A DNA stretch of 28,121 nucleotides from a virus. This document shows positions 8,254-28,121 of the stretch, one piece after another; the stretch's first letter is position 1; every line of letters begins with the position of its first letter. The notes below the pieces were generated by a model. That model ran no database searches, was not told where the DNA came from, and saw nothing but the letters and a program-made list of their open reading frames with translations. The stretch lies in the IMG/VR virus record IMGVR_UViG_3300032053_000403, positions 1 through 28,121 of that record; one strand, given 5' to 3'. Made by a program: the position numbers and the translations under genes.

Positions 8254-8897
8254 TAAACTTCCACCCATGGACGGTTTTGGGTGTCGTGTGGGTGATATTG
8301 ATTGTGTGTATATGTTATATTAAAGGACATGTTTGGTATGATATCTGATCTGACGAAAAACATGTTTAGTGCATGGCATTGGTGGATCAGCGTATAATCT
8401 TTGCTTTCTCCTAGTTTTTTCAAAGCCCCAAAACTCGCTCCATAATAATCTGTACCATCACACGCGAACGTCGGATTATATGGTATTGTCCTGTTCAGGC
8501 CAACATGGATTGTCCCATTCATTTCGATAATGACAACTCTTGGCCTATAACGCAGGGCATTCCATAACCAATAATCATTACCATCAACATCTATCGATAG
8601 CAAATCAAATTCTGTCGGAACGCCATATTTGCAGAAAACAGCATTGATGTTTTCTACGGTCAAAAATTCACAATGCACACCAGAAGCCGGGGGAGTTTTC
8701 CCATCAAACATGATGGCTTTCCACCCAAGATCAACAAAATATCTAGTATTACTCAACGAGCTACCATCAAGTGCCCCAAATTCAACCGCTACTTTGTTCG
8801 TTGTGCCAATTTGATTGAAGATGTGTTCTAAAATTCCTTCTTCACCGGTCTGGCTGTATTTCTTCTTAGAATATGTGTTTAAATTAACGAGATCCAT
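8253..8897 (-). CDS. FkbM-like SAM-dependent methyltransferase
   Basis: 214 residues. The N-terminal YSQTGEEGILEHIFNQI leads into a SAM-binding motif I, VAVEFGALDG (37-45), with NT at 50-51. FDLLSIDVDGNDYWLW (97-112) and RVVIIEMNG (120-128) follow. This order, with 'FGALDG...NT...FDG...DVDG...E-N', matches the FkbM-type and related methyltransferases that O-methylate sugars or small molecules. GGAGA precedes the ATG at good spacing. It sits in a minus-strand operon with glycosyltransferases and a second methyltransferase, so O-methylation of a glycan is the simplest reading. The target is not determined by sequence. Confidence 0.75.
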   Translation of the reverse strand: MDLVNLNTYSKKKYSQTGEEGILEHIFNQIGTTNKVAVEFGALDGSSLSNTRYFVDLGWKAIMFDGKTPPASGVHCEFLTVENINAVFCKYGVPTEFDLLSIDVDGNDYWLWNALRYRPRVVIIEMNGTIHVGLNRTIPYNPTFACDGTDYYGASFGALKKLGESKDYTLIHQCHALNMFFVRSDIIPNMSFNITYTHNQYHPHDTQNRPWVEV

Positions 8898-8907
8898 GTG
8901 TTCTCCG

Positions 8908-9513
8908 TTAAACTTTCTTGAGAAAATATTGTGAAGCGTAAATCAAAAGTTCATTAACATCGCCGGTCCTGTGGTCGAGATCGTCAATTATCTTAGACAG
9001 CAGCGAATCCATTTTCTCCCTACGATTATGTGGGATGTCTTTATTATATTGCATTCCTGGCCACGCGCTGTGTGCGTCATAATATGTACATAACATATCT
9101 TCCATAACATACCACCCACCGCTCATCACATGTGACCACAGATATTTATACGACGTAAGCATATGATCCACCACATGGCTACCGTCATCAATGATAATAT
9201 CAAATGGTGCAAATTTATCAATTACATAATTTAATATTTGTGGGTCGTCTTGACTGCCTGTGACTAAAACAATATCGTCATCAACCTTAACTTCTGGATT
9301 GATGTCAAGACCAATTATTTTAGCATTTGGGAAATATGACTTCCACATTTTGACTGATTTACCACCCAACACCCCTATTTCTAATAAAGTTAATGCCTGC
9401 GATCTAAGAGGAGAAAAAATCTGATCATATATATCGAGATAACTTCTCTTGTTGAAGGTGTGTTCGTGGTCACCTTTATCAGATCCAGGATTTAATTCTT
9501 TAAGAGTTTTCAT
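8908..9513 (-). CDS. Class I SAM methyltransferase, sugar O-methyltransferase-like
   Basis: 201 residues. The start GSDKGDHEHTFNKRSYLDIY is typical of the macrolide/rhamnosyl O-methyltransferase group (MycE-like). Motif I is LLEIGVLGGKSVKMW (43-57), the acidic ribose-binding residue is D70 in IIGLDINP, and FDIIIDDGSHVVDHM (104-118) holds the metal/active-site Asp and His residues of that group. AAGGAAA lies 7 nt before the ATG. The gene overlaps the upstream glycosyltransferase by 14 nt. It probably methylates a sugar hydroxyl on the glycan built by its neighbours. Methyltransferase fold is confident; the sugar substrate is inferred. Confidence 0.78.
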   Translation of the reverse strand: MKTLKELNPGSDKGDHEHTFNKRSYLDIYDQIFSPLRSQALTLLEIGVLGGKSVKMWKSYFPNAKIIGLDINPEVKVDDDIVLVTGSQDDPQILNYVIDKFAPFDIIIDDGSHVVDHMLTSYKYLWSHVMSGGWYVMEDMLCTYYDAHSAWPGMQYNKDIPHNRREKMDSLLSKIIDDLDHRTGDVNELLIYASQYFLKKV

Positions 9514-10312
9514 CTGGTTTCCTTATTATAAAAGAAGCATTGTCGCGGGCGTCACCCCTACTGTGATAAATCATAGTGGCACCATCAACTTGAGAAGCGG
9601 TGTCGGTAATATAAATGCGCTCGCCAGTCGCTAATGTTATGTTAGGACCACACGGTGTCATATTGTTGCGGGCCGCAAAAACACCAAACAAACTCTGATC
9701 ATGGCGCCCACACAGCACACCACCAAAAGCCGTGCCGTCATCAATAAACATATTCATATCTTTACTGCATTCATAAGCCGGCAGCACATAAGTGTTATAA
9801 TATTTATGATTGAGACATTGCATGGCTGCATTAATACCTACCGTTTCTAGTTCCTCTTTTGTAACTTGCAAGATCTGTTTCGGATATTGGTTCAACCACA
9901 AGCCAATTTCTGACACTCCCAATAAAAAATATCCAGTTAAGGTTGTATGGCGGAATATTGGTTCTAATGATCTTAAAATAGTGACACCAGCATCAATCCA
10001 GAAAACAGTCTCGTGCATATCCAAAGCCTGTTTGATAGCCACTGGCTTCCACGCGTAATTTCCGATGACCCTGGTTGGGTTCTGCGAGCCAGGATGTTTC
10101 AATACCGATTTTAATATGTCAGGGTGGGTCTTTTCTACCTGTTTAATTGTTACTTTTTGCATATGATCAAGATTGCTACGTTCTGAACTGGACAGCCCAA
10201 TATCATAGACATAAATTTGCGATATATTATCATAATTGCTTTTATGTAATGATCCAATTAGCGACAGCACTCGCGGAAAATATGCAGAATCAGATGCGGT
10301 GACAATAAACAT
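9500..10312 (-). CDS. Glycosyltransferase (GT-A type, DUF1647/GT8-like)
   Basis: 270 residues from the ATG at 10312, chosen because GGAG lies 5 nt upstream; a GTG at 10318 overlapping the previous stop is a less likely start. The N-terminus FIVTASDSAYFPRVLSLIGSL is the first strand-helix of a nucleotide-sugar-binding GT-A fold. YAWKPVAIKQAL (86-97) and VFWIDAGVTIL (103-113) follow. The WIDAG segment occupies the metal/DxD region, as in related 'nucleotide-diphospho-sugar' transferases. Near the end, IDDGTAFGGVLCGRHDQSLF resembles the acceptor/donor pocket of that group. No signal or membrane segment is present. Donor and acceptor are unknown. Confidence 0.72.
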   Translation of the reverse strand: MFIVTASDSAYFPRVLSLIGSLHKSNYDNISQIYVYDIGLSSSERSNLDHMQKVTIKQVEKTHPDILKSVLKHPGSQNPTRVIGNYAWKPVAIKQALDMHETVFWIDAGVTILRSLEPIFRHTTLTGYFLLGVSEIGLWLNQYPKQILQVTKEELETVGINAAMQCLNHKYYNTYVLPAYECSKDMNMFIDDGTAFGGVLCGRHDQSLFGVFAARNNMTPCGPNITLATGERIYITDTASQVDGATMIYHSRGDARDNASFIIRKPDENS

Positions 10313-10314
10313 AA

Positions 10315-11316
10315 TCACTCCATTTTGTTGATGATTTCTTGCACTTTCATTGATTCTTCTACAAACCCAAACCCAGCTAGAAAGGTCATTATCCTATTCA
10401 TATATGTATGGTTCTTAATAACATGCCTGTGCTGCTTTGACACCAATTCCAACCTTTTGTCTTCATTTTTCAAATAATAACCCACTAAATCAACATATTC
10501 ATCTGGAGTCGACGCCATCGGCATAATATCATATGGGAAATAATCTCGCATTGTTGGCACTGGATCGCTGATTGCCGCCAATCCACAAAGAGGTACCTTA
10601 AATATTCGCTCTGGAATATCTATACCATAAACAGTAGTGTGCGGTTCACTAACACATGGCCCGATTTTAGCAGAAGAAAACAATTTTAATATATCATTGT
10701 CGTCTATTGCACCTCGGCTTCTACCATCCCAACCACCCCACCCATATATGATCGTGTTGTGTTTCTTGCGCACTGGTTCTAGATATTTGTCTATATTAAT
10801 CGCTTTATATGGCCAGTATCCACCAACAAATGCAACATCACATTCCATGCTTGGGTCTGGTTTGACCTTTTTGAAAGATAAATGATCTCCAGCTGTTGGC
10901 TCTCCGTATACTCGTATACCAAGATCGTTGGTCCATTTGTCCCAATGTCTATTAATAGCCCCACGGCAAGCAAAACCAAACACAAAGTTCGGTTCTTGGG
11001 CAACAACCCACTCTATTGTACTACGTGGTTCATTAATGTCTGGCCAGGTTTCCTCTTTTTTTTCTAGAGGAGAACTGCTATATGGGTTGACATGATAGGC
11101 TGTTTTCGTTCCATATTCTTGTTTGGCCCACTTTGGAAAATTTTGTTTGTGGCCAGAGCACCCTATATATACATCTGGTTTAAACGACTTGATGTGTTCA
11201 TCAGTGCCATCCCAATAGGCAACTTTGTGTCCAGCAAATTCAAATGCTTTATATATGCCGCGTATGCCGTAAATATATGCACCACCATTGATGATTGGCA
11301 AAAAGATGTGTTTCAT
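10315..11316 (-). CDS. Glycosyltransferase (GT-B type, CgeB-like)
   Basis: 333 residues. The N-terminal half (GHKVAYWDGTDEH, PDVYIGCSGHKQN) is a Rossmann-like acceptor domain. The linker carries CDVAFVGGYWPYKAINIDKY (159-178). The C-terminal half contains IIYGWGGW (189-196), KIGPCVSEPHTTVYGIDIPE (218-237) and FKVPLCGLAAISD (239-251). That is the nucleotide-sugar pocket pattern of the family-1-like transferases that include the spore protein CgeB. The start overlaps the previous stop as ATGA, with only a weak, distant ribosome site, so it is probably coupled to the dual transferase. Donor sugar unknown; GDP-L-galactose from the nearby epimerase is a candidate. Confidence 0.8.
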   Translation of the reverse strand: MKHIFLPIINGGAYIYGIRGIYKAFEFAGHKVAYWDGTDEHIKSFKPDVYIGCSGHKQNFPKWAKQEYGTKTAYHVNPYSSSPLEKKEETWPDINEPRSTIEWVVAQEPNFVFGFACRGAINRHWDKWTNDLGIRVYGEPTAGDHLSFKKVKPDPSMECDVAFVGGYWPYKAINIDKYLEPVRKKHNTIIYGWGGWDGRSRGAIDDNDILKLFSSAKIGPCVSEPHTTVYGIDIPERIFKVPLCGLAAISDPVPTMRDYFPYDIMPMASTPDEYVDLVGYYLKNEDKRLELVSKQHRHVIKNHTYMNRIMTFLAGFGFVEESMKVQEIINKME

Positions 11317-13211
11317 AAGCTATACTTGCCTTTCAATATACCAATGAGAGTTTTCAATCTTACCGGCATTGGAGTGCTTATTAATTTTTTATTGATTTCT
11401 ATGTTTTTATTGTGTAATGATTCCCACCCAGTAGTTCTTCCATGATTAAGATGCACAAAATCGACATATCTTTCATCATACATGCTGGTGTTGTTTTTAA
11501 GTCTTTCAAAAAATTCGCAGTCTTCCATACCATATCCAACGAAACTTTCATTAAAACCGCCGATGCCTATATAAGTATCTTTATAGCAGGCTAATGAGCC
11601 ACCCTCAAAATATCCTACAACCCTATCGCAATCAAGGTTGTTGCTCACCACCCCGCTAGCTAGAATAGTGTCGGTGCCTGCTTTGTTGACGTACATTACG
11701 CTCTTTCCTATGTGGCACGATTTAAAATTTCTAAGAACTTTATAAACTTCCGATGTGTAATTAATAGGAACCATAATATCAGCATCATGCAAAATAATAA
11801 TACCATTAGGTGCTGACGCCACGCCATAATTAAACGCTTCTGCTTTGTTGAATGGAGTGTTGCTGTGAGCGAATTTATACAGACATGGGGCTATGGAGTT
11901 TATTGTCTGAGCCGAAGACTGTTCCACCAATATTATATCTACGGCTGGGAAATGCTGTGATTTGATATTGTTGATTATTGAATATACCGCCGCCCGCCCA
12001 TCCTGTTCTCTGTATGGAACAACATAAGTAACGAACGGTACTATAGACTCAGCATCTGGATCTACTTTGACCCTTGAATTTTTGACTTTATCAAACAATG
12101 ACTTGGCAGTGGCCAAATGTTCAAATCTGTTTTCTACTGCTGATACTTCATCGTGGATTGTAAAAAATTGCTCAGACCCTTCAACATCATGATATCCAGA
12201 TGGTTGTATTCCCGATTTCCAGATCCTATACGACCAATCAACATGTTCCATACCATAGAGACCGAACTCAACGTCAAAAAAACCAACTTTATCAAAGGCC
12301 AAATGATCAAATGCTATCACTGCTCCGTGTGGTTTATCTCTGATGGTTTTAATTCTGTACCCGTTTTTGATTGTTGATTCTGCAGCGTCAGCTGCCCCAT
12401 ATATTCCGGATTGACGATAGCAAAAATGGTGATATCCAAGTTTTTCCATAGCTGTGACGTAGAACGTGTCCCAGCCATTTTGATTAATTGTCACGTCGTC
12501 ATTCAATAGAATTTTATATTTAAACCTCTCGAGGCATCTCAGTAATCTGTTTGAATTTCCAGCTACACCAAGACGTTTATCGTTATCTATTAACACAATC
12601 CAGTCGATCGATCTAAGATATTCTTTGACTGACTGGTTCGTAGATTCATCACTAACAAAGACCGTAGTCTTGCTAAGATCGGTATGTTGTTGTATTGAAT
12701 CGAGTAGTCTTTTGATTGATTCAAGCCTGTTATATGACAAAACACCGATACCTATGTCGTTAGATATAGATGTTTGATTAGCTGCTAAATGTTTTTTAAA
12801 TAGCTTGGTGGCTTCTATGTGCGTCGCTGTTGGTCTACCGACCATTTTTTGTTGATGTCTATTATTCCACGGTGTGTGTTTTGTCTGGGAAGTGTGCTTC
12901 TTCGTTGTAACAATTTTTTGTTGCAGTTGTGGTTGAGGCTGCTGTCTATATCTCTTTGGTGGCGGTAATGCACCTAATGGGGATCTAATTTCTCTAGTTG
13001 CTTTGACTTTGTGTGATATTCCCATACTAATATTCTCAGGTGGATGTGGTTCTGCCTTTATATTTTCTTCGAGCAATATAAATTTAGGACAATACTTCAA
13101 ATAAAATTCAGACAAGATTTTGTAGCTACCGCCCTTCATGACCACAGTTTCTTTGTTTGGTCCAGCAAGGCGGACAATGTGTCTTGATGGATTATAAAAT
13201 CGGCGATTCAT
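11313..13211 (-). CDS. Bifunctional glycosyltransferase with two GT2-like domains
   Basis: 632 residues from the ATG at 13211, which has AAGGGA upstream and overlaps the previous gene by 20 nt; an in-frame TTG at 13280 has no support. Residues 1-55 form a small N-terminal segment. A Pro/Gln/Lys-rich linker (~75-130) leads to a first GT-A domain, GIGVLSYNRLESIKRLLDSI (~154-173), with LLNDDV (D238/D239) as the metal site and FGLYGMEHVDWSYRIWK as the acceptor end. A second domain starts at FVTYVVPYREQDGR (~393) with ILHDADIMVP (D476, D478). It ends in IGIGGFNESFVGYGMEDCEF, the galactosyltransferase/GT7-C-type signature. The two domains may add successive sugars or alternate linkages, as in bifunctional polysaccharide synthases. 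It is soluble, with no membrane segment. Confidence 0.82.
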   Translation of the reverse strand: MNRRFYNPSRHIVRLAGPNKETVVMKGGSYKILSEFYLKYCPKFILLEENIKAEPHPPENISMGISHKVKATREIRSPLGALPPPKRYRQQPQPQLQQKIVTTKKHTSQTKHTPWNNRHQQKMVGRPTATHIEATKLFKKHLAANQTSISNDIGIGVLSYNRLESIKRLLDSIQQHTDLSKTTVFVSDESTNQSVKEYLRSIDWIVLIDNDKRLGVAGNSNRLLRCLERFKYKILLNDDVTINQNGWDTFYVTAMEKLGYHHFCYRQSGIYGAADAAESTIKNGYRIKTIRDKPHGAVIAFDHLAFDKVGFFDVEFGLYGMEHVDWSYRIWKSGIQPSGYHDVEGSEQFFTIHDEVSAVENRFEHLATAKSLFDKVKNSRVKVDPDAESIVPFVTYVVPYREQDGRAAVYSIINNIKSQHFPAVDIILVEQSSAQTINSIAPCLYKFAHSNTPFNKAEAFNYGVASAPNGIIILHDADIMVPINYTSEVYKVLRNFKSCHIGKSVMYVNKAGTDTILASGVVSNNLDCDRVVGYFEGGSLACYKDTYIGIGGFNESFVGYGMEDCEFFERLKNNTSMYDERYVDFVHLNHGRTTGWESLHNKNIEINKKLISTPMPVRLKTLIGILKGKYSL

Positions 13212-13446
13212 TGCATCCCTTCGGTTGTGTTCCGTCGATTCTATCAACCACTCTCCGACGGAGTACTTTTGCGACCTCAACAGCCAGAGCAGTGTATTCT
13301 AATTGATCCCCGTGATAAACAACCACAGGCGTGTCAGAACCTTTTTCGAGGACGCTAATCACCATGCACCTAATATTTGGTTTTTCATCCAGTAGTGTTT
13401 TTCTCAGTTCCAGTATTTTAGCGATCAATTCGGGATGTTCGTTCAT
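13192..13446 (-). CDS. Small protein of unknown function, first gene of glycan block
   Basis: 84 residues from the ATG at 13446, with GGAGG 7 nt upstream; a TTG at 13476 in the same frame would sit inside the divergent gene's start. Helical N-terminus (HPELIAKILELRKTLLDEK), then a beta strand pair (IRCMVISVLEKGSDTPVVVYHGDQLEYTA, continuous but unassigned) and a basic helix (VAKVLRRRVVDRI). No known motif. As first gene after a divergent, palindromic spacer it could have a regulatory role, but nothing in the sequence shows DNA binding. Confidence 0.65.
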   Translation of the reverse strand: MNEHPELIAKILELRKTLLDEKPNIRCMVISVLEKGSDTPVVVYHGDQLEYTALAVEVAKVLRRRVVDRIDGTQPKGCNESPIL

Positions 13447-13474
13447 GTATTCGCCTCCGCTGCGGCTAAAATAC
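13447..13474. promoter_or_regulatory. Imperfect palindrome filling a 29-bp divergent spacer
   Basis: The gap between two divergent ATGs is almost completely an imperfect inverted repeat. The outer arms are GTATT (13447-13451) and AATAC (13470-13474). The inner arms are CCGC (13457-13460) and GCGG (13462-13465) around T13461. The left half also provides the minus-strand gene's GGAGG. It could be an operator or an RNA hairpin. The + strand gene has no evident Shine-Dalgarno here. Confidence 0.3.
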
Positions 13475-13475
13475 A

Positions 13476-14087
13476 ATGGATACTAAAATCAAAGAAATTA
13501 TTGACTTGTATGAAAGATTAACTGGCAGGCAAATCATTCCTAAAGACACAGATTACAAAAAGACCTACCAGTATAGATATGCAGCAAAATTTGTAAACAA
13601 TATGAAATATGTGCCGTGGGATACAGCAAAGAAAATAGCTTATTATGCCATTGAATATGCAAGGAACAATCTTAAAAAGAACAATACGATCTGGACTAGG
13701 GGATTATGGGTATTAACAAAAGCAAATATCGTTGATATAGCATACAGTAGCGCTAAATCTCATGAAGCGAGAATGCAACTGGATTTGGAAAAAACAGTTA
13801 ATAGTAAAAAGTTTGTTGATGCGCAAGAAACTGGCCTGGCTGAGACGAAGGTTGAGGGAGGGTTTCCTAATATAGTGATGTGGTATGAAAACAACAGTGT
13901 CAATTTGACCTACATAGCTATGTCTGAAATTTGCAAGCGGGTCATGGCGCAATTGGATTCATCAAGCAAAAGCATGTTGCCACCACAAGATGAAATAATA
14001 AGAAGAAGAGTGAAATGCTTAATAGATGATGACTACAGCGAGAAACTTAAAAAAGTCCTTGGCGACGATTACATTAAAATTGTGTAG
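13476..14087 (+). CDS. Protein of unknown function (203 aa)
   Basis: 203 residues, mostly helical and basic at the start (YKKTYQYRYAAKFVNN, WDTAKKIAYYAIEYARNNLK) and acidic at the end (LIDDDYSEKLKKVLGDDYIK). There are no cysteine sites, signal or NTP-binding motifs. No ribosome site precedes the ATG: the upstream bases are ctgcggctaaaataca. Start choice is therefore less certain, although the next in-frame Met (residue 43) would remove a well-formed helix. It is first in a + strand run that leads to UvsW. Family not recognised. Confidence 0.65.
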   Translation: MDTKIKEIIDLYERLTGRQIIPKDTDYKKTYQYRYAAKFVNNMKYVPWDTAKKIAYYAIEYARNNLKKNNTIWTRGLWVLTKANIVDIAYSSAKSHEARMQLDLEKTVNSKKFVDAQETGLAETKVEGGFPNIVMWYENNSVNLTYIAMSEICKRVMAQLDSSSKSMLPPQDEIIRRRVKCLIDDDYSEKLKKVLGDDYIKIV

Positions 14088-18680: not shown

Positions 18681-19174
18681 CTGCTCTTCCAGAAGATAAC
18701 GAACTAGCATCTTTACTTAGCGATTTAAACGACATTAAAGATGTCGCACCGGTGTCTTTATCTACCCACACCACGCCTCTTGTCTCCGCTGGAGAACAGA
18801 GCAATGCTGGAATACAAGGGCCTCAGGGTAACACTCTGGCATCACAAGAAATCACATTACATCATGAAGGCGACGCGCCGCCGCCAACCACTATAGGTAT
18901 TGATCTTGGTGGGTTATATGATCAATCGATACAAGAATTGTTATTAAATTATAGGAAAGATAGGCAAGATTTAGATTCATATATTAATTTTATATATGGA
19001 AAACTAAATCACGACGGGCCGAGTAGGATTTTCTTCGAAGCCATCGCTATGTCCCTCAGAACCAAATCTGAGGCCAATACCAATCTAATCAAACTCATAG
19101 ACAATATTGGTAGGCGAATAGAAAAACAAACTGGCGTAGAAGATTTAAATCTCGAAGGCCTGTTAGATGATTGA
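18677..19174 (+). CDS. 16: Terminase small subunit, gp16-like
   Basis: 165 residues. The N-terminal ~75 are acidic and flexible (ELASLLSDLNDIKDV, then Ser/Thr/Pro-rich). Residues ~80-155 form the helical core: LYDQSIQELLLNYRKDRQDL, then FFEAIAMSLRTKSEANTNLI and KLIDNIGRRIEKQTG. This resembles the T4 gp16 central helical hairpin ('[23 protein letters not shown]...[29 protein letters not shown]'). gp16 forms rings that recognise DNA and stimulate the large terminase. The stop overlaps the start of the large subunit by 8 nt, the same gene order as T4 16-17. Assignment rests on order plus helical pattern. Confidence 0.75.
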   Translation: MTALPEDNELASLLSDLNDIKDVAPVSLSTHTTPLVSAGEQSNAGIQGPQGNTLASQEITLHHEGDAPPPTTIGIDLGGLYDQSIQELLLNYRKDRQDLDSYINFIYGKLNHDGPSRIFFEAIAMSLRTKSEANTNLIKLIDNIGRRIEKQTGVEDLNLEGLLDD

Positions 19175-21008
19175 TAAAGTAACAAAAATCAAAGAAATCG
19201 TCAGAAAGTGTAAGAAGTCTCCAGAATACTTCATAGATAATTTCTGTAAAATAAAACATCCTCAGGCGGGAATATTGCCATTTAAATTATTCAATTACCA
19301 GAGAAAATGTCTCGGGCATTTTACAAAAAATAGATTCAACATTTTTGGTAAAACGCGTCAATCAGGGATTAGTACCCTGTGTGGAGCATATGCATTATGG
19401 CTCGCAATGTTCTTCAAAGCAAAAACCATTCTAATAGTATCCAAACGTGATCTAGATGCCAAAGACTTTATGATCAAGAATGTTAAGTTCGTATATGAAA
19501 GACTTCCTCAGTGGATGAAAGCAGTGTGGGTTCCGGAAACCGACAACGAACACCAAATTGGGTTTCATAATGGATCTAAAATAACATCGCTACCATCCGG
19601 CCCAGAGACCCTCCGTGCTAATTCATCATCACTCAATATTATCGACGAAGCCGCATTCTGCCCAAACATGAATGCGATGTGGTCCGGTGGCGCGCCAACA
19701 TTGCAGCACGGTGGTTCAGTGCTAGTCATATCAACTTCTAATGGTATTGGAAATTGGTACTGGAAGACATGGACTGATGCTAAAGAGCATTACAACGAGT
19801 TCAATCCAATCGAAATTGATTGGTGGGATATGGATTGGGCTATTGAATATGTTGATGATGTCACAAAGACTCCGACAAGGATAGCTCCGACTGATGGCTT
19901 ACGCAGATGTGAGACTAAAGAAGAAAAAACAAAATATGGTGATTATTGGAGTCCATGGCTTGAGACTCAATACAGATCGTTGACCGAAAAGGGTGATGAT
20001 TCCAAATTCAGACAAGAAGTACTAAGAGATTTTCTTGGGTCAGGAAACACAGTTCTTAGCAGAGAGACCCTGTTAATAATAAGGGCCCAAGCCAAAGAAG
20101 CAGGTAAGACATATAAGACAGTGAATCATGTAGATTACATACAACCAATTACTAACGAAAGTTATGTACTCGAATTTGACAATAGGCTGTGGGTATGGCA
20201 AGAACCGCAAAAAGAACATATATATACAGTTGGGGCCGATATCTCTGGCGGTGAATCTAATGACTGGTCTGCGGCCGAAGTGTTTGATGTAATATCTGGT
20301 GAGCAAGTTGCCGAATTACAGATAAAAGCCAAACCCAAAGATTTTGCGATTATGATAGATTACATAGGTAGATGGTATAATAATGCCTTCTTGGTTCCAG
20401 AAAGAACCGGCATGGGAATTACAGTATGTCAGGACCTTGAAGACATGGCATATCCTAATATATTTAGGAAAAATATGTTACCAACAGCCGCAAACAAGGC
20501 TCTAGCCAATCAATTTAGCGGACCAATAGGATATAACACAACAGGTGTTGGTAAGCCAATCATCAACAAGGCTCTAATAGATAATCTCGGTGAGGGTGGA
20601 TATAAGGTAAAATCACACAGATTAATCATACAAGCAGAAACATATATCCATCTAGGCCCAAACAGAACCGGTGCAGAAAAAGGCTCTATGAATGATGACT
20701 TAATGATCGCTTCTGGTCTGGCTTTTGTGGGTATAAATATGTCTATATGTGCCGAGAATAGTGCCATGGTTCCGTTCTCATCATTGAAGGCAAGTATGAA
20801 TTTTGGAGCACCAGATCCAAATATTGACGTGGCTAAGACCACCGACTACAGGGCAATGTTCCCTATGGGTGTTGGGAAAGGCCAAACAATACAAGAGACA
20901 CAAGAACAGGAGATACAAAGATTTGCCCAATCTTTGATGGTGCCGGTCACCGATAGTCAGTTACCGTCGGTGGTTGTTAAGAAAAGAATATTCCCACCTC
21001 AAAGATAA
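19167..21008 (+). CDS. 17: Terminase large subunit, gp17-like packaging motor
   Basis: 613 residues, the usual length. It pumps DNA into the prohead by ATP hydrolysis and cuts the concatemer. ATPase half: FNYQRKCLGHF (adenine-binding Q motif, 42-52) and a deviant Walker A NIFGKTRQSGISTL (58-71), in which the lysine (K62) sits at the front of the loop and Ile replaces the usual GK lysine. Walker B with catalytic carboxylate is LNIIDEAAF (156-164), and the coupling motif is VISTSNG (187-193). Nuclease half: YTVGADISGGESNDWSAAE (353-371, Asp358), LVPERTGMGIT (409-419) and MNDDLMIASGLA (508-519), the three acidic clusters of an RNase H-type nuclease. The C-terminal ~80 residues are a tail probably docking on the portal. 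Downstream is the portal gene. Confidence 0.93.
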   Translation: MIDKVTKIKEIVRKCKKSPEYFIDNFCKIKHPQAGILPFKLFNYQRKCLGHFTKNRFNIFGKTRQSGISTLCGAYALWLAMFFKAKTILIVSKRDLDAKDFMIKNVKFVYERLPQWMKAVWVPETDNEHQIGFHNGSKITSLPSGPETLRANSSSLNIIDEAAFCPNMNAMWSGGAPTLQHGGSVLVISTSNGIGNWYWKTWTDAKEHYNEFNPIEIDWWDMDWAIEYVDDVTKTPTRIAPTDGLRRCETKEEKTKYGDYWSPWLETQYRSLTEKGDDSKFRQEVLRDFLGSGNTVLSRETLLIIRAQAKEAGKTYKTVNHVDYIQPITNESYVLEFDNRLWVWQEPQKEHIYTVGADISGGESNDWSAAEVFDVISGEQVAELQIKAKPKDFAIMIDYIGRWYNNAFLVPERTGMGITVCQDLEDMAYPNIFRKNMLPTAANKALANQFSGPIGYNTTGVGKPIINKALIDNLGEGGYKVKSHRLIIQAETYIHLGPNRTGAEKGSMNDDLMIASGLAFVGINMSICAENSAMVPFSSLKASMNFGAPDPNIDVAKTTDYRAMFPMGVGKGQTIQETQEQEIQRFAQSLMVPVTDSQLPSVVVKKRIFPPQR

Positions 21009-21035: not shown

Positions 21036-24000
21036 ATGAGTATTCAATTATTTGATAGAATTAGAGCTTTCCTTAAGAGCGGTAATCTATTTAGACACGA
21101 GAATCTTCTCCAGAATCAGAATGATATCAGCCGGGCCATTCAGAACAACGAATTTATAAATTATTCTTCATCTGGTCTTCTCGACCAAACTAATCTCCAA
21201 ATCAACAGAATGGAGAGGTATAAAGATTATGACCAAATGGATGAAATGGGTGAGATATCATTAGCATTGGATTTATATGCAGATGAGTCATGCCTAGATG
21301 GTAATACTAGAATACCATTATTAGATGGTACTTGTCCAACCATATCAGAATTAGCTAAGAATGGCCCAGAATATGAATTCTGGGTATATGCTATTGATAA
21401 TATTACCAAGAAAATGGTCCCGGCTAAGGCAAAGAATGCCAGGATTACAAAATTTAATCAGAACATGGTCACTGTTATTTTGGATGACATGAACGAGATA
21501 CGTTGCACCCCCGATCATAAATTCATGCTTAAGGATGGTACATTTATAGAAGCTAAAGACTTAAAATCTGGTGATAGTTTGATGCCATTATATAAGAATA
21601 GAAGATATAGAAGTAAATCCGGGCCATTTGTAGAGCAAAAACCATATAATACAGCATCAGAATATGATTTTATGTACATCAAAGAAACAAATCATTTCAT
21701 CTCAGTTCACAGGTGGGTATACGAATTTTTCAATAATCATGCCGAAACAATACACCATAAGGATTGGAATGGTATAAATAATGTCCCATCTAATCTTGAA
21801 GGTATGTTATCTAAGGATCATTACAAGTTACATAGCAAATGTGGTGCAGAAAACCATAGTTTTAATAAAATTACATTGTCAGAAATTGAGCAGAAATTAA
21901 TTGATTGTGACAATTTTTCAAATGCCCGATCTGTATGTGCATTCCTATCAATAGGACAAAGGGTATTCAATAGAGTTCTCAAAGAAAATGGTCTGAACTG
22001 GAAGTCATTCAAATCCAAATATCACCATTGCAAATGTGGTATTAAATTAGCCGGTGTCAAGAGACAATGTTCAGAATGCAAGAAAGAATATTTAAAAACC
22101 TGGCATCAATCACACAAGACTGATCCAATTTATATGACTAGAAGGATAAATAGCAAGAGATTATCATATAAAAATAATGAAGCGGTTAGAGATAGAATTT
22201 GTACAAATTGTGGTTGCACCAAGCCGATATCTGAATTCCTCAAAAATTATTGTTCATATAGTATATATTGCAATGATTGTAGACCAATATCAGTTCAGAA
22301 GAGATATTTAGAAAAATCTTTTGTTAATCATAAAGTAATATCGGTTGTTGAATCCGGAGTTGCCAAAGAAGTATATGACATTGAAGTACCTGACCACTAT
22401 TGTTTTGCTGCGGGTACAGATAAATCATGGGTTATAGTTCACAATTGCCAGACGGACCCAGAGAAGAAACATGTCATATCGATTAGAGCTAAAAACGCAG
22501 ATGTTAAAAAGGAACTCGAAAGGTTATTTTACGACATTCTGAACATCGACCACAAATTGCGGCCAATGATTAGATATTTATGCAAATATGGTGATTTTGC
22601 CGCCGAAATAATCCCCAACGAAAACAGAACTGAAGTTGCGTCATATAGACCATTCAATATATTTAGTTTCTTGAGAGTAGAAACTAAATATGGTGATCTT
22701 GTTGGGTTCTTTTTCACCGATGAATTGATGACCGAGCCACTATTTTTACATCCGTGGCAGGTTATGCATCTAAGATTAATGTCATACGAAAACATATACG
22801 CGCCTTATGGACGATCCCTACTAGATGGCGCCCGTAAAGATTTCCGCAGATTGAGGTTGATGGAAGATGCTGCCCTAATATATAGAATCACGCGCGCACC
22901 TGAGAAGCGCATATTCACCATACCAGTTGGTAACATACCAACCAACCAGATCAACCAATACCTGCATCAAATTTCAGATCAATTTAAAAAGCAGAGATTT
23001 TTCGACCCATCCACCGGCGAGGTGAACTGGAGATATGCGCCGCTAATTCAGGAAGATGATTTCTGGATGCCACAGCGCCCAGATGGTACCGGTCCTAAAG
23101 TTGAAACAATGAAAGGTGCTGAGAACCTTGATCAGATCAAGGACATTGAATATTTCAAGAAGAAGATGGTTGCGCCGCTCAAGATTCCGTTCTCAAGAGT
23201 TGGTATAGGAGACGAGGCTGGAGCGAACGCAGATAAATCATTGTCATCGAGTCACACTGATTTTGCGAAAGCAGTCCAGTTTGTGCAACAAGAGGCTAGT
23301 GTTGGATTAAAGAAAATAGCTTTGGTGCACCTGTCTTTGAAGGGGTTCACAACCGATGATATGTCGTCATTTGATGTAATTATGACAGCTTCTTCAGCCA
23401 TTGATGAATTATATAGAATCGAAACTTGGAATTCAAGGGCTGGGGTAATAGGGACTCTCAAAGAAACGCAAATGTTCACCGACAACTGGATATTATCGAG
23501 ATTCACCGACATGACGGATGACGAAATAGAAGAATTGCAAGAACAAAAGCAGGAAGAAGCAGCAAAAAACCCACCAGCGGAGCCAGGCGCGGAACCGGGC
23601 GGAATGGCGTTGCCAGGACTGGAAGAAATCGACAAACTAGAAAGTAAAGTGCTTGTTGAATATGCTAAGATGGTCACCAGTAGGAAGAAGACCATAGAAG
23701 AAGCAAAATCAATCAGATATCCGAATTCCTGGCAAATTATGCTCAATGGTAACGAGTTAAATGGCCTGCCGGCGTCTGGTAAATCAAAGAAACAAGACGT
23801 AATTACAGAAGCCGTTGCGGTTGGGGATAAAGATCCATTCAGTAATCTTATACCCAAAGATGGCGGAACCGAAGAAGTAAAACAAGTTTTGGTCGAAGAA
23901 GACTATATAGTGCAACCTCTAGATGACGAAGACGCTGAGGAAGCAAAAAGTATAATTAAAAAGACATTAATCAACATTAATGGTCACAAAGACACGCAGA

Positions 24001-24047
24001 AAATGAGTTGTGCCATAATGAAGATATCAAATGCAATGGATAAATGA
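21036..24047 (+). CDS. 20: Portal protein, gp20-like, interrupted by an intein
   Basis: 1003-residue precursor. After removal of the 385-residue intein (86-470) the portal would be 618 residues, close to T4 gp20 (about 520) plus an acidic tail. The dodecameric portal is the DNA channel and the docking site for terminase and neck. N-extein: YKDYDQMDEMGEISLALDLYADES, the conserved T4-type clip/wing block (split here as two quoted parts: YKDYDQMDEMGEIS and LALDLYADES). C-extein: RAPEKRIFTIPVGNIPTNQI, PQRPDGTGPKVETMKGAENL and MVAPLKIPFSRVG are characteristic gp20 blocks. From ~residue 840 a Glu/Gln-rich and Pro-rich extension carries VLVEEDYIVQPLDDEDAEE. GGAG lies 6 nt before the ATG. Portal identity is confident from sequence and from position after the terminase genes. 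Confidence 0.93.
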   Translation: MSIQLFDRIRAFLKSGNLFRHENLLQNQNDISRAIQNNEFINYSSSGLLDQTNLQINRMERYKDYDQMDEMGEISLALDLYADESCLDGNTRIPLLDGTCPTISELAKNGPEYEFWVYAIDNITKKMVPAKAKNARITKFNQNMVTVILDDMNEIRCTPDHKFMLKDGTFIEAKDLKSGDSLMPLYKNRRYRSKSGPFVEQKPYNTASEYDFMYIKETNHFISVHRWVYEFFNNHAETIHHKDWNGINNVPSNLEGMLSKDHYKLHSKCGAENHSFNKITLSEIEQKLIDCDNFSNARSVCAFLSIGQRVFNRVLKENGLNWKSFKSKYHHCKCGIKLAGVKRQCSECKKEYLKTWHQSHKTDPIYMTRRINSKRLSYKNNEAVRDRICTNCGCTKPISEFLKNYCSYSIYCNDCRPISVQKRYLEKSFVNHKVISVVESGVAKEVYDIEVPDHYCFAAGTDKSWVIVHNCQTDPEKKHVISIRAKNADVKKELERLFYDILNIDHKLRPMIRYLCKYGDFAAEIIPNENRTEVASYRPFNIFSFLRVETKYGDLVGFFFTDELMTEPLFLHPWQVMHLRLMSYENIYAPYGRSLLDGARKDFRRLRLMEDAALIYRITRAPEKRIFTIPVGNIPTNQINQYLHQISDQFKKQRFFDPSTGEVNWRYAPLIQEDDFWMPQRPDGTGPKVETMKGAENLDQIKDIEYFKKKMVAPLKIPFSRVGIGDEAGANADKSLSSSHTDFAKAVQFVQQEASVGLKKIALVHLSLKGFTTDDMSSFDVIMTASSAIDELYRIETWNSRAGVIGTLKETQMFTDNWILSRFTDMTDDEIEELQEQKQEEAAKNPPAEPGAEPGGMALPGLEEIDKLESKVLVEYAKMVTSRKKTIEEAKSIRYPNSWQIMLNGNELNGLPASGKSKKQDVITEAVAVGDKDPFSNLIPKDGGTEEVKQVLVEEDYIVQPLDDEDAEEAKSIIKKTLININGHKDTQKMSCAIMKISNAMDK
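21291..22445 (+). mobile_element. Intein with HNH homing-endonuclease domain inside the portal gene
   Basis: 385 codons in frame with both exteins. Splice block A starts at Cys86 (CLDGNTRIPLLDG). Block B is IRCTPDHKFMLKDGT, with the conserved Thr and His (T158, H161). Block F is EVYDIEVPDHYCFAAG (445-460). Block G is SWVIVHN followed by extein Cys471. All nucleophiles (Cys1, block B His, penultimate His, terminal Asn, +1 Cys) are present, so splicing should work. The centre carries an HNH nuclease (IHHKDWNGINNVPSNLEGML, with H262 and H266 after it). Two zinc-ribbon-like modules follow: C332-C334/C345-C348 and C389-C392 (plus C394)/C412-C415. The insertion lies within the conserved YADES motif of the portal, where target conservation is high. 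It does not interrupt reading, so the portal can be functional. Confidence 0.93.
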
Positions 24048-24267
24048 ACAGCTAATTGGTGAATATGTTTTATCCGGCGATGCCATAGATGGCACTGTCA
24101 GATTAATCATTCATTTTCCTGGTGGAGAGAAAATATTGCGCGTGAAGCACATGACGCAGTCAGATCTCAATGACGCCACCGTAGACGACATTAGAAGACA
24201 TTTCTCCAGAATAGTAGACAAGATTAAAGCCAAGTCGGAAGACCAGCTTAAGTTGCTATGTACTTAA
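24031..24267 (+). CDS. Small protein of unknown function after the portal gene (78 aa)
   Basis: 78 residues overlapping the last 17 nt of the portal gene in another frame. There is no strong ribosome site (only gaagat upstream), so translation may depend on coupling to the portal. Mixed composition: GTVRLIIHFPGGEKILRVKH suggests a beta hairpin, followed by a basic/acidic helix (DIRRHFSRIVDKIKAKSED). In T4 the gene after the portal is the prohead-core protein 67, which is very acidic; this protein does not show that bias, so I do not assign it. Confidence 0.6.
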   Translation: MQWINEQLIGEYVLSGDAIDGTVRLIIHFPGGEKILRVKHMTQSDLNDATVDDIRRHFSRIVDKIKAKSEDQLKLLCT

Positions 24268-24322
24268 TGCCTGTGTTATAAACCGACCAGCAAACACAAA
24301 GACACCGTTGCTATAATACACA

Positions 24323-24401
24323 TTCGGCCTTAGTTGATGAAGTGTCTATCGGCTAGTTCAACTCCCAACGTGGGACAAGCCGTCCGGTCTTAGTTGATGA
24401 A
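24323..24401 (+). repeat. Two 19-nt direct repeats exactly 60 bp apart in the longest intergenic gap
   Basis: The gap 24268-24549 (282 nt) holds no convincing gene. It contains TTCGGCCTTAGTTGATGAA (24323-24341) and TCCGGTCTTAGTTGATGAA (24383-24401), 17 of 19 identical, starting 60 bp apart. Between them lies a nested hairpin: GGCT...AGCC around CCCA-acg-TGGG (24351-24379 region). The core CTTAGTTGATGAA is identical in both. Both copies contain TAG-TTG-ATG in the same frame as the upstream small gene. The second copy ends 14 nt before the promoter -35 box, so a regulator or structured RNA could act here. Function unknown. Confidence 0.7.
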
Positions 24402-24414
24402 TCAAGAAAAAATA

Positions 24415-24443
24415 TTGACAAAAGCATCTTCTTGTGGTATAAT
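24415..24443 (+). promoter_or_regulatory. Consensus sigma-70 promoter for the RpoD-like sigma gene
   Basis: TTGACA (24415-24420) and TATAAT (24438-24443) are both perfect matches to the bacterial sigma-70 consensus, with the optimal 17-bp spacer. An A-rich run (aagaaaaaat) lies just upstream, resembling an UP element. Predicted start of transcription is near 24450, leaving a leader of about 100 nt. This would be read by unmodified host RNA polymerase, so early expression of the downstream sigma gene is expected. Confidence 0.85.
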
Positions 24444-24449
24444 AAAAGA

Positions 24450-24549
24450 AGATAGAGATCACATAGAGTCGTTAGAGTATACAACCCACAGTATTATCTC
24501 TGGCACACCAATTGCTACCATTATGGTAGGCCTTTGGTAAGGGGAGAAC
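24450..24549 (+). promoter_or_regulatory. Structured 5' leader of the RpoD-like sigma gene
   Basis: Within the predicted transcript, AGAGAT (24454-24459) can pair with ATCTCT (24496-24501). CTACCAT-t-ATGGTAG (24515-24529) forms a second, perfect hairpin just upstream of the ribosome site AAGGGGAG (24539-24546). The hairpin so close to the ribosome site could tune translation, but no known riboswitch fold is recognised. Confidence 0.3.
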
Positions 24550-25656
24550 ATGACAACGATCAGAAAAGATCTCGTCGAAGGTATCAGCTCCCATTTGGTT
24601 GGAGAAGGATTTGAAGTACCAAACGCACCTAGCTTCGGCGCGGAGCTAGAACGCGAATACATCACTAAGATGAAGGAGATAAGAAGCAGAGCCTTCGACG
24701 CGAATGGCAATAAGTATACCGATCAAGCTCATGCCCAGGCAGTGGCTGATTACGAAAATGAACGACATTCTCTTTCCGAGAAGTATGCTTTTGTACCATA
24801 CACAATCGCAAGAGAACTGCACAAACAATGCCACCGTGGGATGGGGTTCGATGACCTCTTCAATGTTGGGTTCGCGGCTATTCTACATTCCATCGACAAA
24901 TGGCCCCCTTTCCTTGGTGCCACAGACAAAGGATATAGATTTCTCACAACCGCGAAAACCGCAGTGCACAATGCTATTTGCAGGTTCCTAGATGACAACA
25001 ATCGTCCGGTTAAGATCCCGGCCTTCAAAATTGAGCAGATCTCTGTAAAGCTCAAAGCCGCCAACCTCCTCTATGGCAAGAAAAAGCAGGTCAGTAAATG
25101 CAGATGCGCCAACTGCCCCTGCGATAAGTTGCACACCGATGGCTGTGGCAGGAAAAAACCAGGTGTTCATGAGCAGGATATCCTCACCTTTCTGAGGAAA
25201 GCCGAATTAACAGTTGAAGATGTCGATGGGAAGAAGTCTCTTGGTGATCTTGCTGTCGACACCAATGACTACAAATCTATAGCTGAAATAGTAAATCTCG
25301 ATGTTTCTTCTTTCATCTCGATCATTCAACCGACTAGCTCAATCGATGTGCCAATGGGAGATGAAAGTGACGACACAATCGCTGACACTGTCATAGCCGA
25401 GAGTTATGACAGTGATAAACAGGCCTTCACCAGAGAAATCATCGAGAAAGCTCTTACTTACATTCCAGAAAGAAACGCAAATATAATCAGAGACCATTAT
25501 TTCAAAGGTTTTAGCATCCAAGAGATTGCGTACCAAAATAAATATAGTGTCACCAGAGCCAACCAGATGATCAAGAAGTCAGTCAATCGGATCATGGCTA
25601 GCGGCGCCGCGATGAATATTCTGGGGCATATTCTGATGGGGAAAAATTCAGACTAG
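24550..25656 (+). CDS. RpoD-like sigma-70 family factor with Cys-rich insertion
   Basis: 368 residues. Region 2 is clear: GFDDLFNVGFAAILHSIDKW (99-118), then GYRFLTTAKTAVHNAICRFL (128-147) and NRPVKIPAF (151-159), corresponding to 2.1-2.4. Region 3 begins with IEQISVKLKAANLLYG. It is then interrupted by a ~60-residue segment (178-238) with a cysteine knot (C184, C186, C189, C191, C199; CRCANCPCDKLHTDGCG) and resumes at SIAEIVNLD. The 3.2 linker SSIDVPMGDESDDTIADTV (263-281) matches the bacterial 'SL-TPIGDDEDSHLGDF' form. Region 4 is ALTYIPERNANIIRDHYF, FSIQEIAYQNKYSVTRANQM, with a helix-turn-helix. It should reprogram host RNA polymerase. It is preceded by a consensus promoter and followed by a terminator, i.e. 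a single-gene transcription unit. It is distinct from the shorter gp55-like sigma. Confidence 0.88.
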   Translation: MTTIRKDLVEGISSHLVGEGFEVPNAPSFGAELEREYITKMKEIRSRAFDANGNKYTDQAHAQAVADYENERHSLSEKYAFVPYTIARELHKQCHRGMGFDDLFNVGFAAILHSIDKWPPFLGATDKGYRFLTTAKTAVHNAICRFLDDNNRPVKIPAFKIEQISVKLKAANLLYGKKKQVSKCRCANCPCDKLHTDGCGRKKPGVHEQDILTFLRKAELTVEDVDGKKSLGDLAVDTNDYKSIAEIVNLDVSSFISIIQPTSSIDVPMGDESDDTIADTVIAESYDSDKQAFTREIIEKALTYIPERNANIIRDHYFKGFSIQEIAYQNKYSVTRANQMIKKSVNRIMASGAAMNILGHILMGKNSD

Positions 25657-25682
25657 CAGACAAAACAGAACGTGGTATTTAA

Positions 25683-25711
25683 CGGGCCAGGCATTTTGCC
25701 TGGCCCGTTTT
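25683..25711 (+). terminator. Intrinsic terminator after the sigma gene
   Basis: A perfect 10-bp stem CGGGCCAGGC / GCCTGGCCCG (25683-25692 with 25698-25707) has loop ATTTT and is followed by TTTTA. It lies 27 nt after the sigma stop and closes that transcription unit. The next gene starts 20 nt downstream, with its own ribosome site. Confidence 0.93.
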
Positions 25712-25730
25712 AATTGGTTAAGGGGATAAT

Positions 25731-25853
25731 ATGGATTCTAATGAAGAAGGCAAAATATCATCAGTCTGGGGTTGTGGCTGCATCGTTGGGTTCGTAATTA
25801 TGTCTGGCATCTTATGGGTATTATACCAATTAATCTTCAACCAGCCATCGTGA
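25731..25853 (+). CDS. Small single-pass membrane protein (40 aa)
   Basis: A 40-codon frame with AAGGGG 5 nt before the ATG. The N-terminal 12 residues are polar (MDSNEEGKISSV). A continuous hydrophobic stretch follows, WGCGCIVGFVIMSGILWVLY (13-32), then QLIFNQPS. It is a typical small inner-membrane protein, orientation uncertain. The two cysteines in GCGC sit at the start of the membrane segment. It directly follows the terminator and is followed 9 nt later by the next gene, with its own ribosome site. A role in lysis or superinfection control is conceivable but not shown. Confidence 0.7.
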   Translation: MDSNEEGKISSVWGCGCIVGFVIMSGILWVLYQLIFNQPS

Positions 25854-25862
25854 AGGAAATAA

Positions 25863-26123
25863 ATGGATACTAATTCAGAACTAGGATTACTTACCAAAGA
25901 CATTAATGATTTACTCAATACACTACTATTATATAAACTTGTGGCGGCGACTTTGAAACAGCATGAAATTGATAGTATATTAGATGAAGGTCAAAAATCA
26001 ATTTGCGTGGTTTTGTCCAAAAATATTGATGGGTATTTTGGCAAAACCGCTCTTGAAAAAATTTCAGCTGATGTTGTAACTAAAATTAAAGAGACCATTA
26101 ATTCTATTAATACACAACAATAA
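25863..26123 (+). CDS. Small helical protein of unknown function (86 aa)
   Basis: 86 residues; AAGGA lies 6 nt before the ATG. It is nearly all helical, with Leu-rich N-terminal part (GLLTKDINDLLNTLLLYKL) and an acidic middle (HEIDSILDEGQ). The C-terminal helix is ADVVTKIKETINSINTQQ. There is no signal, cysteine pattern or recognised domain. An AT-rich spacer with aataattattataaaatt follows. Confidence 0.68.
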   Translation: MDTNSELGLLTKDINDLLNTLLLYKLVAATLKQHEIDSILDEGQKSICVVLSKNIDGYFGKTALEKISADVVTKIKETINSINTQQ

Positions 26124-26172
26124 TTATTATAAAATTATTATTCAATCTATACATAAGGGACAGGAGATCAAT

Positions 26173-26496
26173 ATGGAGACCGACAGGCTCAAGAATAGTA
26201 TTGGCAATCATTTTGTGTTTAGACTTAACAAAGTATTAATGTCTGGGTGCTTCTGTGGTATAGGCGAAATCGACGAAACATATGGTATGGTTTTTATAAA
26301 TGTCAAAGCAGCGGGTGTAGAAATGACAGAAAACATTGCGTTGGTTGTGGCCCCGTCCGCAATAAAATGTACTTTATATTCTGATATGCTTTGGCTCAGG
26401 AGCACTTGTAGGAAAATATTCAGAAATTTAAAACTTAAGGCTCTTACCCAAGAAAAAATTTATTATCCAACCTTCCAAATCCAAGAGGTCACATGA
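26173..26496 (+). CDS. Protein of unknown function (107 aa)
   Basis: 107 residues with CAGGAG 6 nt before the ATG. Beta-rich core (HFVFRLNKVLMSGCFCGIG, MVFINVKAAGVEMTENIALV) and a basic helix (STCRKIFRNLKLKA). The Cys residues (GCFCG) do not form an obvious metal site. The AT-rich spacer before it (26124-26172) has no clear promoter. Its stop overlaps the next start by 4 nt (ATGA). Not recognised. Confidence 0.65.
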   Translation: METDRLKNSIGNHFVFRLNKVLMSGCFCGIGEIDETYGMVFINVKAAGVEMTENIALVVAPSAIKCTLYSDMLWLRSTCRKIFRNLKLKALTQEKIYYPTFQIQEVT

Positions 26497-26972
26497 AACA
26501 GAACTTAAGACAAGAGGATAATATTTGCATAATTTGTAAGAAAGATCTTGGTAAATTTACGGCTGCCAGAGCATCACATCTTAGAACACACGTCAGAGAT
26601 GGATCATTAAAAGAAATAAAAGAAGACGACAAGATTGCATGGATATCCACCGGCAATCCACCTCGAGTAATCGAAAACACACCAGTCACATATAGACAAT
26701 TTCGGTCATTATCTAGTCTAGAATTTCATCCAAGGATTCCGGTGACTGCTAAAAGTGACAAAAAAGGTGATGTATATATTAAGTGTAGAAAATGCGGTCA
26801 GTTTAAATCCGCAATGAGAGAGGTCATCGTGGATGGGAAAAAATCAAAAACGGTATCGCTATTTGCTGACGATAGACTTATATCAATTACATGTTGCGAG
26901 TCGATATCCCCATTCCCCAAGAGACGCGTAGAGGCGTTGCTTATTAGTCCCGGACGTGAATTCACAGAATAA
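26493..26972 (+). CDS. Zinc-finger-like protein with C2H2-type N-terminus (159 aa)
   Basis: 159 residues, coupled by ATGA to the preceding gene. The N-terminus carries C12-x2-C15-x13-H29-x3-H33 in ICIICKKDLGKFTAARASHL followed by RTHV, which matches a C2H2 zinc finger with one extra residue in the loop. A second possible site is C98-x2-C101 (KCRKCGQFK) with C134/C135 (ITCCES). Middle and C-terminal parts are basic. It may bind nucleic acid, as bacterial Ros/MucR-type fingers do, or be a structural zinc fold; no target is shown. Confidence 0.7.
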   Translation: MKQNLRQEDNICIICKKDLGKFTAARASHLRTHVRDGSLKEIKEDDKIAWISTGNPPRVIENTPVTYRQFRSLSSLEFHPRIPVTAKSDKKGDVYIKCRKCGQFKSAMREVIVDGKKSKTVSLFADDRLISITCCESISPFPKRRVEALLISPGREFTE

Positions 26973-26986
26973 ATCAAAAATATAAT

Positions 26987-27547
26987 ATGAATAACATAAT
27001 TAGATTACCAGAAGATCATGTCATCAATTTTGCGACAGAAGTTGGTTTGACTGGGCAAGATCATGACAATTATGCTGAACCCGGATCATATCCGAGATAT
27101 GACTGGATGAGAATGATCGTTCTTGGGTTGTTAGCTAACCAAACTTCAGACAAAACACCAACAGAATTTAGACCAGGAACTTTGTGGTATGATTTAACAT
27201 CATTCTTTTTTAAGTGTTCTCAGGATGGTATCTTCGGTGATCTTTCAAAGAACATTCAAGTAAATATTGATTTAAAATCATGGTCTGAACATATTAATTA
27301 TTTAATGAGATTATTTATTCCGACCGGAACATTTTCTGGGATAGCATATGGTCATTCAACATCAATTAATATCCCAAACAAACTGCAACCATTTGCTATA
27401 CCTCCGAACAAGCCATATCTATTTAAACTTGGCAAAATGATTTCCCCAGATCTGATGCGATTCAACACTGGATGTCCAGTTTGTATTGAACTTACTGGTG
27501 ATGCTATCCTGGCATCTGGCGATCATTTCACGGTATTTATACAATAA
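26987..27547 (+). CDS. Protein of unknown function, possibly structural (186 aa)
   Basis: 186 residues with no Shine-Dalgarno before the ATG (upstream aaatcaaaaatataat); the start is chosen because it opens the frame. Contains DHDNYAEPGSYPRYDWMRMI (24-43), then EFRPGTLWYDLTSFFF (60-75) and a beta-rich remainder (FSGIAYGHSTSINIP, SGDHFTVFIQ). The 'YPRYDWMR' and 'FRPGTLWYDL' pieces look like conserved phage structural-protein segments, but I cannot name the family. Confidence 0.6.
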   Translation: MNNIIRLPEDHVINFATEVGLTGQDHDNYAEPGSYPRYDWMRMIVLGLLANQTSDKTPTEFRPGTLWYDLTSFFFKCSQDGIFGDLSKNIQVNIDLKSWSEHINYLMRLFIPTGTFSGIAYGHSTSINIPNKLQPFAIPPNKPYLFKLGKMISPDLMRFNTGCPVCIELTGDAILASGDHFTVFIQ

Positions 27548-27566
27548 TTATAATTTATGGTTAATA

Positions 27567-27614
27567 TATAAATCACTTGGGTGAAGTGATTGGACCATTA
27601 TTAGGACCGTTATA
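27567..27614 (+). promoter_or_regulatory. Late-promoter-like box, hairpin and 12-bp direct repeat
   Basis: The 78-nt gap holds TATAAATC (27567-27574, seven of eight to the T4 late box). Overlapping it is a perfect 8-bp hairpin AATCACTT-gggtg-AAGTGATT (27571-27591). Next come GGACCATTATTA and GGACCGTTATAA, two 12-bp near-identical units in tandem (27592-27615), ending at the AAGGAG of the next gene. No U-tract follows, so it is not a typical terminator. Operator or late promoter is inference. Confidence 0.35.
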
Positions 27615-27625
27615 AGGAGAATATC

Positions 27626-27832
27626 ATGTTCATTGCGACCACACCCACACCAAAACACGGACTCACAGAAGAAGATGCAACCAAGGATTTTTTGCATTTG
27701 CTTGGTAGGACATGTGAATACATTAAAAATTTAGAAGACCTTGGAAGAATCAAACCAGGTTCATACATGCCACTATACGAACAAATCATTGATTTGGCAA
27801 AGAAGTCGATCAAGGAAAATTGGAATGCATAA
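27626..27832 (+). CDS. Small protein of unknown function (68 aa)
   Basis: 68 residues with AAGGAG 7 nt before the ATG. Starts FIATTPTPKHGLTEED, then two helices (ATKDFLHLLGRTCEYIKNL; YMPLYEQIIDLAKKSIKE). The protein is acidic to neutral with no motif. The next gene starts within its last codons, overlapping by 8 nt. Not recognised. Confidence 0.65.
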   Translation: MFIATTPTPKHGLTEEDATKDFLHLLGRTCEYIKNLEDLGRIKPGSYMPLYEQIIDLAKKSIKENWNA

Positions 27833-28121
27833 TTTTCAACAGACTTATGATAAAATCGAGCGCGCGGAATTTGTTGGGTTCCGCACGTTTAAAAATGGTA
27901 TTATATCTGAAGATGTTGGTGTGCAGGAAGATATATTTTCATTCTATGAAATAAATAATTTTCACCCAATAGATAAATATGATCAGTGTCCTTGGCTAGT
28001 GCTAGCAAATGAACAAGGATATTTAGTAATTGATTCATCAAACCATATATTAGATCGCGTAGATTTGAGTTTGTCCTATAAAGACAAACTCAAATTAGAA
28101 ATTGCTAGAGATTCTATGTTG
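27825..28121 (+). CDS. Unknown protein, truncated by window end
   Basis: The frame is open from the ATG at 27825 to the last base (99 codons, no stop). It begins MHNFQQTYDKIERAEFVG and contains acidic and aromatic patches (DVGVQEDIFSFYEINNF, CPWLVLANEQGYLVIDSSN) that look like mixed alpha/beta. CAAGGAAAA lies about 10 nt upstream and overlaps the end of the previous gene. No family recognised from this fragment. Confidence 0.6.
   Translation, partial: MHNFQQTYDKIERAEFVGFRTFKNGIISEDVGVQEDIFSFYEINNFHPIDKYDQCPWLVLANEQGYLVIDSSNHILDRVDLSLSYKDKLKLEIARDSML

Follow-up and report, generated by a model that had tools for sequence, protein, structure and literature searches.

What is the 385-residue segment that interrupts a conserved motif in the portal gene of this phage, and how did it come to be there? 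The window analysed here comprises all 28,121 bases of an IMG/VR viral record, and it carries T4-type genes (a gp32-like SSB, a family A DNA polymerase, a 5'-3' exonuclease, a helicase and a T4-like large terminase). Right after the T4-like TerL gene (19167-21008) comes an ORF on the plus strand (21036..24047) coding for a precursor of 1003 amino acids, which is identified as a T4-type, gp20-like portal by its Portal_T4 domain in Pfam (PF07230, residues 485-841 of the ORF, E 1.1e-68), its match to the PHROG portal family (E 2.9e-63) and its position adjoining a T4-type terminase. The N-extein (21036..21290, plus strand) has 85 residues and ends in ...LALDLYADES, while the C-extein (22446..24047, plus strand) starts with Cys+1 and continues QTDPEKK...; joined, they make a portal of 618 amino acids. 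AlphaFold2 modelled this inteinless portal with low confidence (mean pLDDT 36), and the profile alignment of T4 gp20 covered it only beyond about residue 206. Between the replication and the head genes, the window also holds a cluster of sugar epimerase, glycosyltransferase and probable methyltransferase genes (6551-13476), which from 7519 onwards lie mainly on the minus strand.

The insert (21291..22445, plus strand; ORF residues 86-470, CLDGNTRI...WVIVHN) is in frame and matches the Pfam domain Intein_splicing (PF14890) with an E-value of 2.3e-18, its score of 66.9 bits exceeding the curated cut-off of 35.8. The residues of a class 1 intein are all in place: Cys1 (TGC at 21291), the block B motif TxxH as T73-P-D-H76, and a terminal His384-Asn385, whose last codon AAT ends at 22445 and is followed by Cys+1 (TGC at 22446). 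Blocks A and B, the latter with T73xxH76, lie in an N-terminal splicing domain (21291..21596, plus strand) that aligns to solved DnaE and DnaB inteins, and blocks F and G in a C-terminal one (22326..22445, plus strand) that closes with ...VIVHN. Y362, D363, F372 and N385 are invariant across 10 of 10 intein homologues, and a profile built from these homologues finds solved inteins in the PDB, those of DnaE and DnaB among them. AlphaFold2 modelled the intein with a mean pLDDT of 76.9, and in this model the splicing blocks and the N-terminal domain mostly reach 88-96 and the C-terminal domain about 86-96. Foldseek aligned this model to DnaB, CDC21 and DnaE inteins at 2-3 Å over about 100 residues, with E-values down to about 1e-7; the best modelled part of the insert is a Hint splicing fold. 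The reading frame runs on without a break, as it also would if the insert were a structural domain belonging to the portal and not an intein. That idea has next to no chance of being right in view of the intein domain match, the Hint fold, the terminal His-Asn/Cys and the exact empty sites described below, and we rejected it as the identity of the insert. A group I intron was rejected as well, the frame being open throughout and the splicing residues being those of an intein.

The insert also contains an HNH nuclease core (21693..21836, plus strand; HHKDWNGINNVPSNLEGMLSKDHYKLH) with an intact motif, H155 H156 ... N164 ... H177/H181. On its own, the window intein matches HNH_3 under the Pfam cut-off (E 0.03, 14.4 bits, cut-off 24.8); the same domain is matched in 7 of the 10 homologues, at best with 3.2e-10, and the insert matches the HNH endonuclease family phrog_7545 (1.9e-06). 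There are no stops or frameshifts in the intein ORF. A four-helix HTH-like segment (21876..22022, plus strand), with helices at residues 196-203, 212-219, 223-232 and 237-244 of the model, is a probable DNA reader. Profile positions 114-234 match, weakly (E 0.025), the HNH homing endonuclease I-HmuI (1u3e), in which the HNH core is followed by helices as in the window intein. I-HmuI itself is encoded by an intron and is not part of an intein. Two cysteine modules, candidate zinc-binding units, complete the set. The first (22029..22079, plus strand; C247, C249, C260 and C263, HCKC...CSEC) lies in a region of low model confidence, about residues 246-259, and reads CxC...CxxC in the window copy as against CxxC...CxxC in L097, L098 and L100; because CxC replaces CxxC, this module may have decayed. 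The second (22200..22280, plus strand; C304, C307, C327 and C330) is a regular CxxC...CxxC, all four cysteines of which are invariant in P0002, L097, L098 and L100.

Viral contigs with a portal free of any insert define the empty site. Such portals are encoded by loci L005, L006, L007/L008, L009 and L010-L012, some of which are copies of one another. The best inteinless relative shares about 70% of all 618 residues. L005-L012 are co-linear with the window portal apart from the insert; the closest of them, L005, L006 and L008, match both exteins on the two sides of the site, and read straight through it as DLYADES|TQIDPETKH, so the exteins of the window are intact. At the DNA level, similarity to L005/L018 ends at 21290 and restarts at 22455, and tblastn and blastn matches to inteinless relatives resume with the C-extein. 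The +1 residue is Cys in the window and Thr in the empty-site relatives, hence window and relatives differ in the +1 codon as well as in the insert. The stretch nt 21908-28044, which takes in the intein's 3' half, recurs at 100% identity in a second contig (IMGVR 3300032516_007092); this makes an assembly error unlikely, and we rejected that explanation. These findings bear out, to the base, a preliminary description that had placed an intein in the portal gene at 21291-22445, with an HNH core, two extra Cys modules and exteins joining at LYADES into a 618-residue portal; to it they add the irregular first module and the Thr of the relatives at +1. No second intein was found in the 28,121-base record.

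The same position, named a2 here, is occupied in some other phages and empty in most. Full inteins with HNH, HTH-like segment and Cys modules are present in the window, L097, L098/L099 and L100, and L113 retains the C-terminal part. Those of L097, L098, L100 and L113, all from IMG/VR uncultured contigs, resemble the window intein in their insertion at YADE[AS]| and in about 50% identity, but they have Ser+1 instead of Cys+1 and sit in host portals of a distinct clade. Endonuclease-less forms occur as well: L124 has a closely related mini-intein of 143 amino acids, and L145, L147 and their copies carry a second, more distant mini-intein lineage of 160 amino acids. Full, mini and empty correspond to the three states through which a homing cycle passes. 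The intein of L001, from the uncultured huge phage LR756511, shares the a2 site and Cys+1 with that of the window but has 232 amino acids, no nuclease and only about 26-36% identity. One scan of GTDB genomes, queried with the family of a2 inteins, yielded no relative.

After the a2 set, the closest relatives of the window intein are those of L068, L069 and L089 at site a1, which lies after Y81 in the same motif, four codons (12 bp) upstream of a2. They differ from the window intein by Ser+1 and by lacking Cys modules; L068 and L069 have the HNH, and L089 is a mini-intein of 145 amino acids. TerL inteins (L125, L126, L136 and L155) belong to the same broad HNH intein family, in another gene. 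A focused intein tree joins a1 and a2 into one clade versus the TerL inteins (100/98), and within it a1 is one clade (100/99); a single clade of the related a2 inteins was not rejected (p-AU 0.57).

The Cys modules are kept in near same-site kin and absent from the kin 12 bp upstream, which lends weak support to a putative role in added target specificity. The distant inteins of L001 and L107 have no such modules although they too sit at a2, and the link between modules and site is thus limited to the near a2 branch, the only one in which the modules were found. The zinc finger of I-TevI is a distance determinant, fixing how far from its binding site the enzyme cuts (PMC2988022), and two zinc fingers are present in an HNH insertion element described from a phage (PMC11855218). 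We raise, as an unlikely conjecture, that YADE could be contested by sibling inteins whose insertion points lie only 12 bp apart, so that the a1 and a2 targets would overlap and each intein would block the other, the Cys modules having reset the distance from cut to binding as in I-TevI. If true, the two sites would preserve a natural trace of how an intein moved to a new position by gain or loss of a DNA-reading module. The a1/a2 pair is a testable case of a homing element shifting its insertion point.

The trees of portals and inteins are discordant. In the portal tree, the window groups with the empty L018-L020 (99/98), far from the other a2 carriers, and its nearest portals, 84% identical over 223 columns, are without intein. 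Well supported branches force at least 4 changes of intein state, and a single clade of portals bearing related a2 inteins was rejected (p-AU 9e-59). The GC3 of the window intein, 0.278, lies below that of every one of the 5046 sliding 385-codon stretches taken from the remaining genes on the plus strand; the inteins of L069, L068 and L098 are also AT-richer than their hosts, while that of L097 is not. Both the discordance between the trees and the foreign codon composition point to horizontal transfer, and taken together they favour a recent arrival in the window lineage over an ancient presence, although one old gain followed by many losses could have produced the discordance as well. The sporadic distribution and the discordance are in keeping with putative cleavage at a specific site of the intein-free allele and with transfer. 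A much less probable account is that splicing has been kept while the endonuclease is inactive, so that the intein is by now a passenger inherited vertically. In its favour, the first Cys module is irregular, and the mini-inteins demonstrate nuclease loss at this very site, yet all HNH residues are intact in a frame free of lesions, the foreign composition suggests a recent arrival, and the closest portals have no intein.

We therefore read the insert as a homing intein of class 1 that occupies site a2 of a T4-type portal gene, just behind the YADES residues, with a probability of about 0.93 for this reading, in which splicing, cleavage, homing and the part played by the Cys modules are inferred. 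Its support is at the sequence level, with intact splicing residues and HNH motif, clean empty sites, same-site mini-inteins and discordant trees, together with the model of the Hint fold. The most likely course would be full translation, autocatalytic splicing, and then HNH-driven homing during co-infection. The whole precursor would be translated first; Cys1 would attack the upstream peptide bond, Cys+1 would take over the N-extein, and cyclisation of Asn385 would release the intein, leaving a 618-aa portal able to enter the portal ring. The HTH-like segment and the two Cys modules would then direct the HNH domain, freed or embedded, to cut insert-free portal genes in co-infecting phages, and repair of the cut gene would copy the intein in. 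The insertion in a conserved portal motif fits the view that, for an intein in such a place, only exact removal is viable (PMC2988022). One could also imagine a conditional intein, whose splicing, gated by redox or stress through Cys1, Cys+1 and the Cys modules, times portal supply and capsid assembly; this is a Cys-rich element in a head gene, and redox-gated inteins of other systems are among the work cited in PMC7156551. We hold this to be very improbable, since most relatives make their portal without an insert and the near same-site kin have Ser+1, so that no shared need for such control is visible.

The preliminary description had suspected that a portal is a rare place for an intein. 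For this clade that is wrong, since a scan that used inteinless portals as queries turned up 79 loci, or 56 clusters once near-copies were removed, and at least one intein was present in 17 of these 56 related T4-type portal clusters, a rough frequency based on peptide patterns in the best 80 matches; inteins occur, moreover, in mycobacteriophage portals (PMC5050341). Several competing inteins have targeted the portals of these T4-type phages again and again, at some nine positions. In L005 numbering, these sites are a1 (Y81|A82), a2 (S85|T86), b (R208|S209), e (I233|T234) and f (after R296); c and d were found in the huge phage LR756508 (L002), and more distant portals add a0 ('EIS|') and g. 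Sites b and e mostly hold LAGLIDADG-type elements, judging by sequence, and the a-sites HNH types or minis. Among the large T4-type phages of this clade, the portal is a frequent intein host, with two or three inteins in some genes. Automatic annotation will misjudge such portals, because their ORFs reach 1000-1600 aa.

Several of these loci deserve separate mention. L097:3590-8494 encodes, in one ORF of 1635 aa, a portal interrupted by three inteins, an HNH type at a2, a mini at b and a LAGLIDADG type at e, the last of which ends in Ala-Asn ('VQAN') and not His-Asn. The portal ORF of L002 (LR756508.1, 4662-8822) also has three, at b, c and d, that at d terminating in Lys-Asn. Site-e inteins of L082 (5076-6353) and L081 (5076-6392) depart from His-Asn too, ending in Gln (THQ|T) and Ala-Asn (LAN|T). 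The a0 insertion (...EIS|SALDIYADD) lies about ten codons upstream of a2 in the distant portals of L137, L149, L168, L170 and L171. L085, with a LAGLIDADG-type e intein, and L057, with none, have 84-88% DNA identity on both sides of the site; their difference marks a recent gain or loss of the e intein, and the two form a natural allele pair for homing.

Portal inteins have been reported in six mycobacteriophages (PMC5050341). Those of cluster C1 (PORT) are, like the one described here, in a phage portal gene, but in another phage group. Maynard, CampHawk and Mic1 have inteins in terminase or helicase, and the portal inteins that we found in the literature were only those of mycobacteriophages. 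No report of inteins in T4-type gp20 portals was found in the searchable literature, which is not proof of absence. The intein itself is of a known kind; what this analysis adds is the number of portal sites and the pair of neighbours 12 bp apart.
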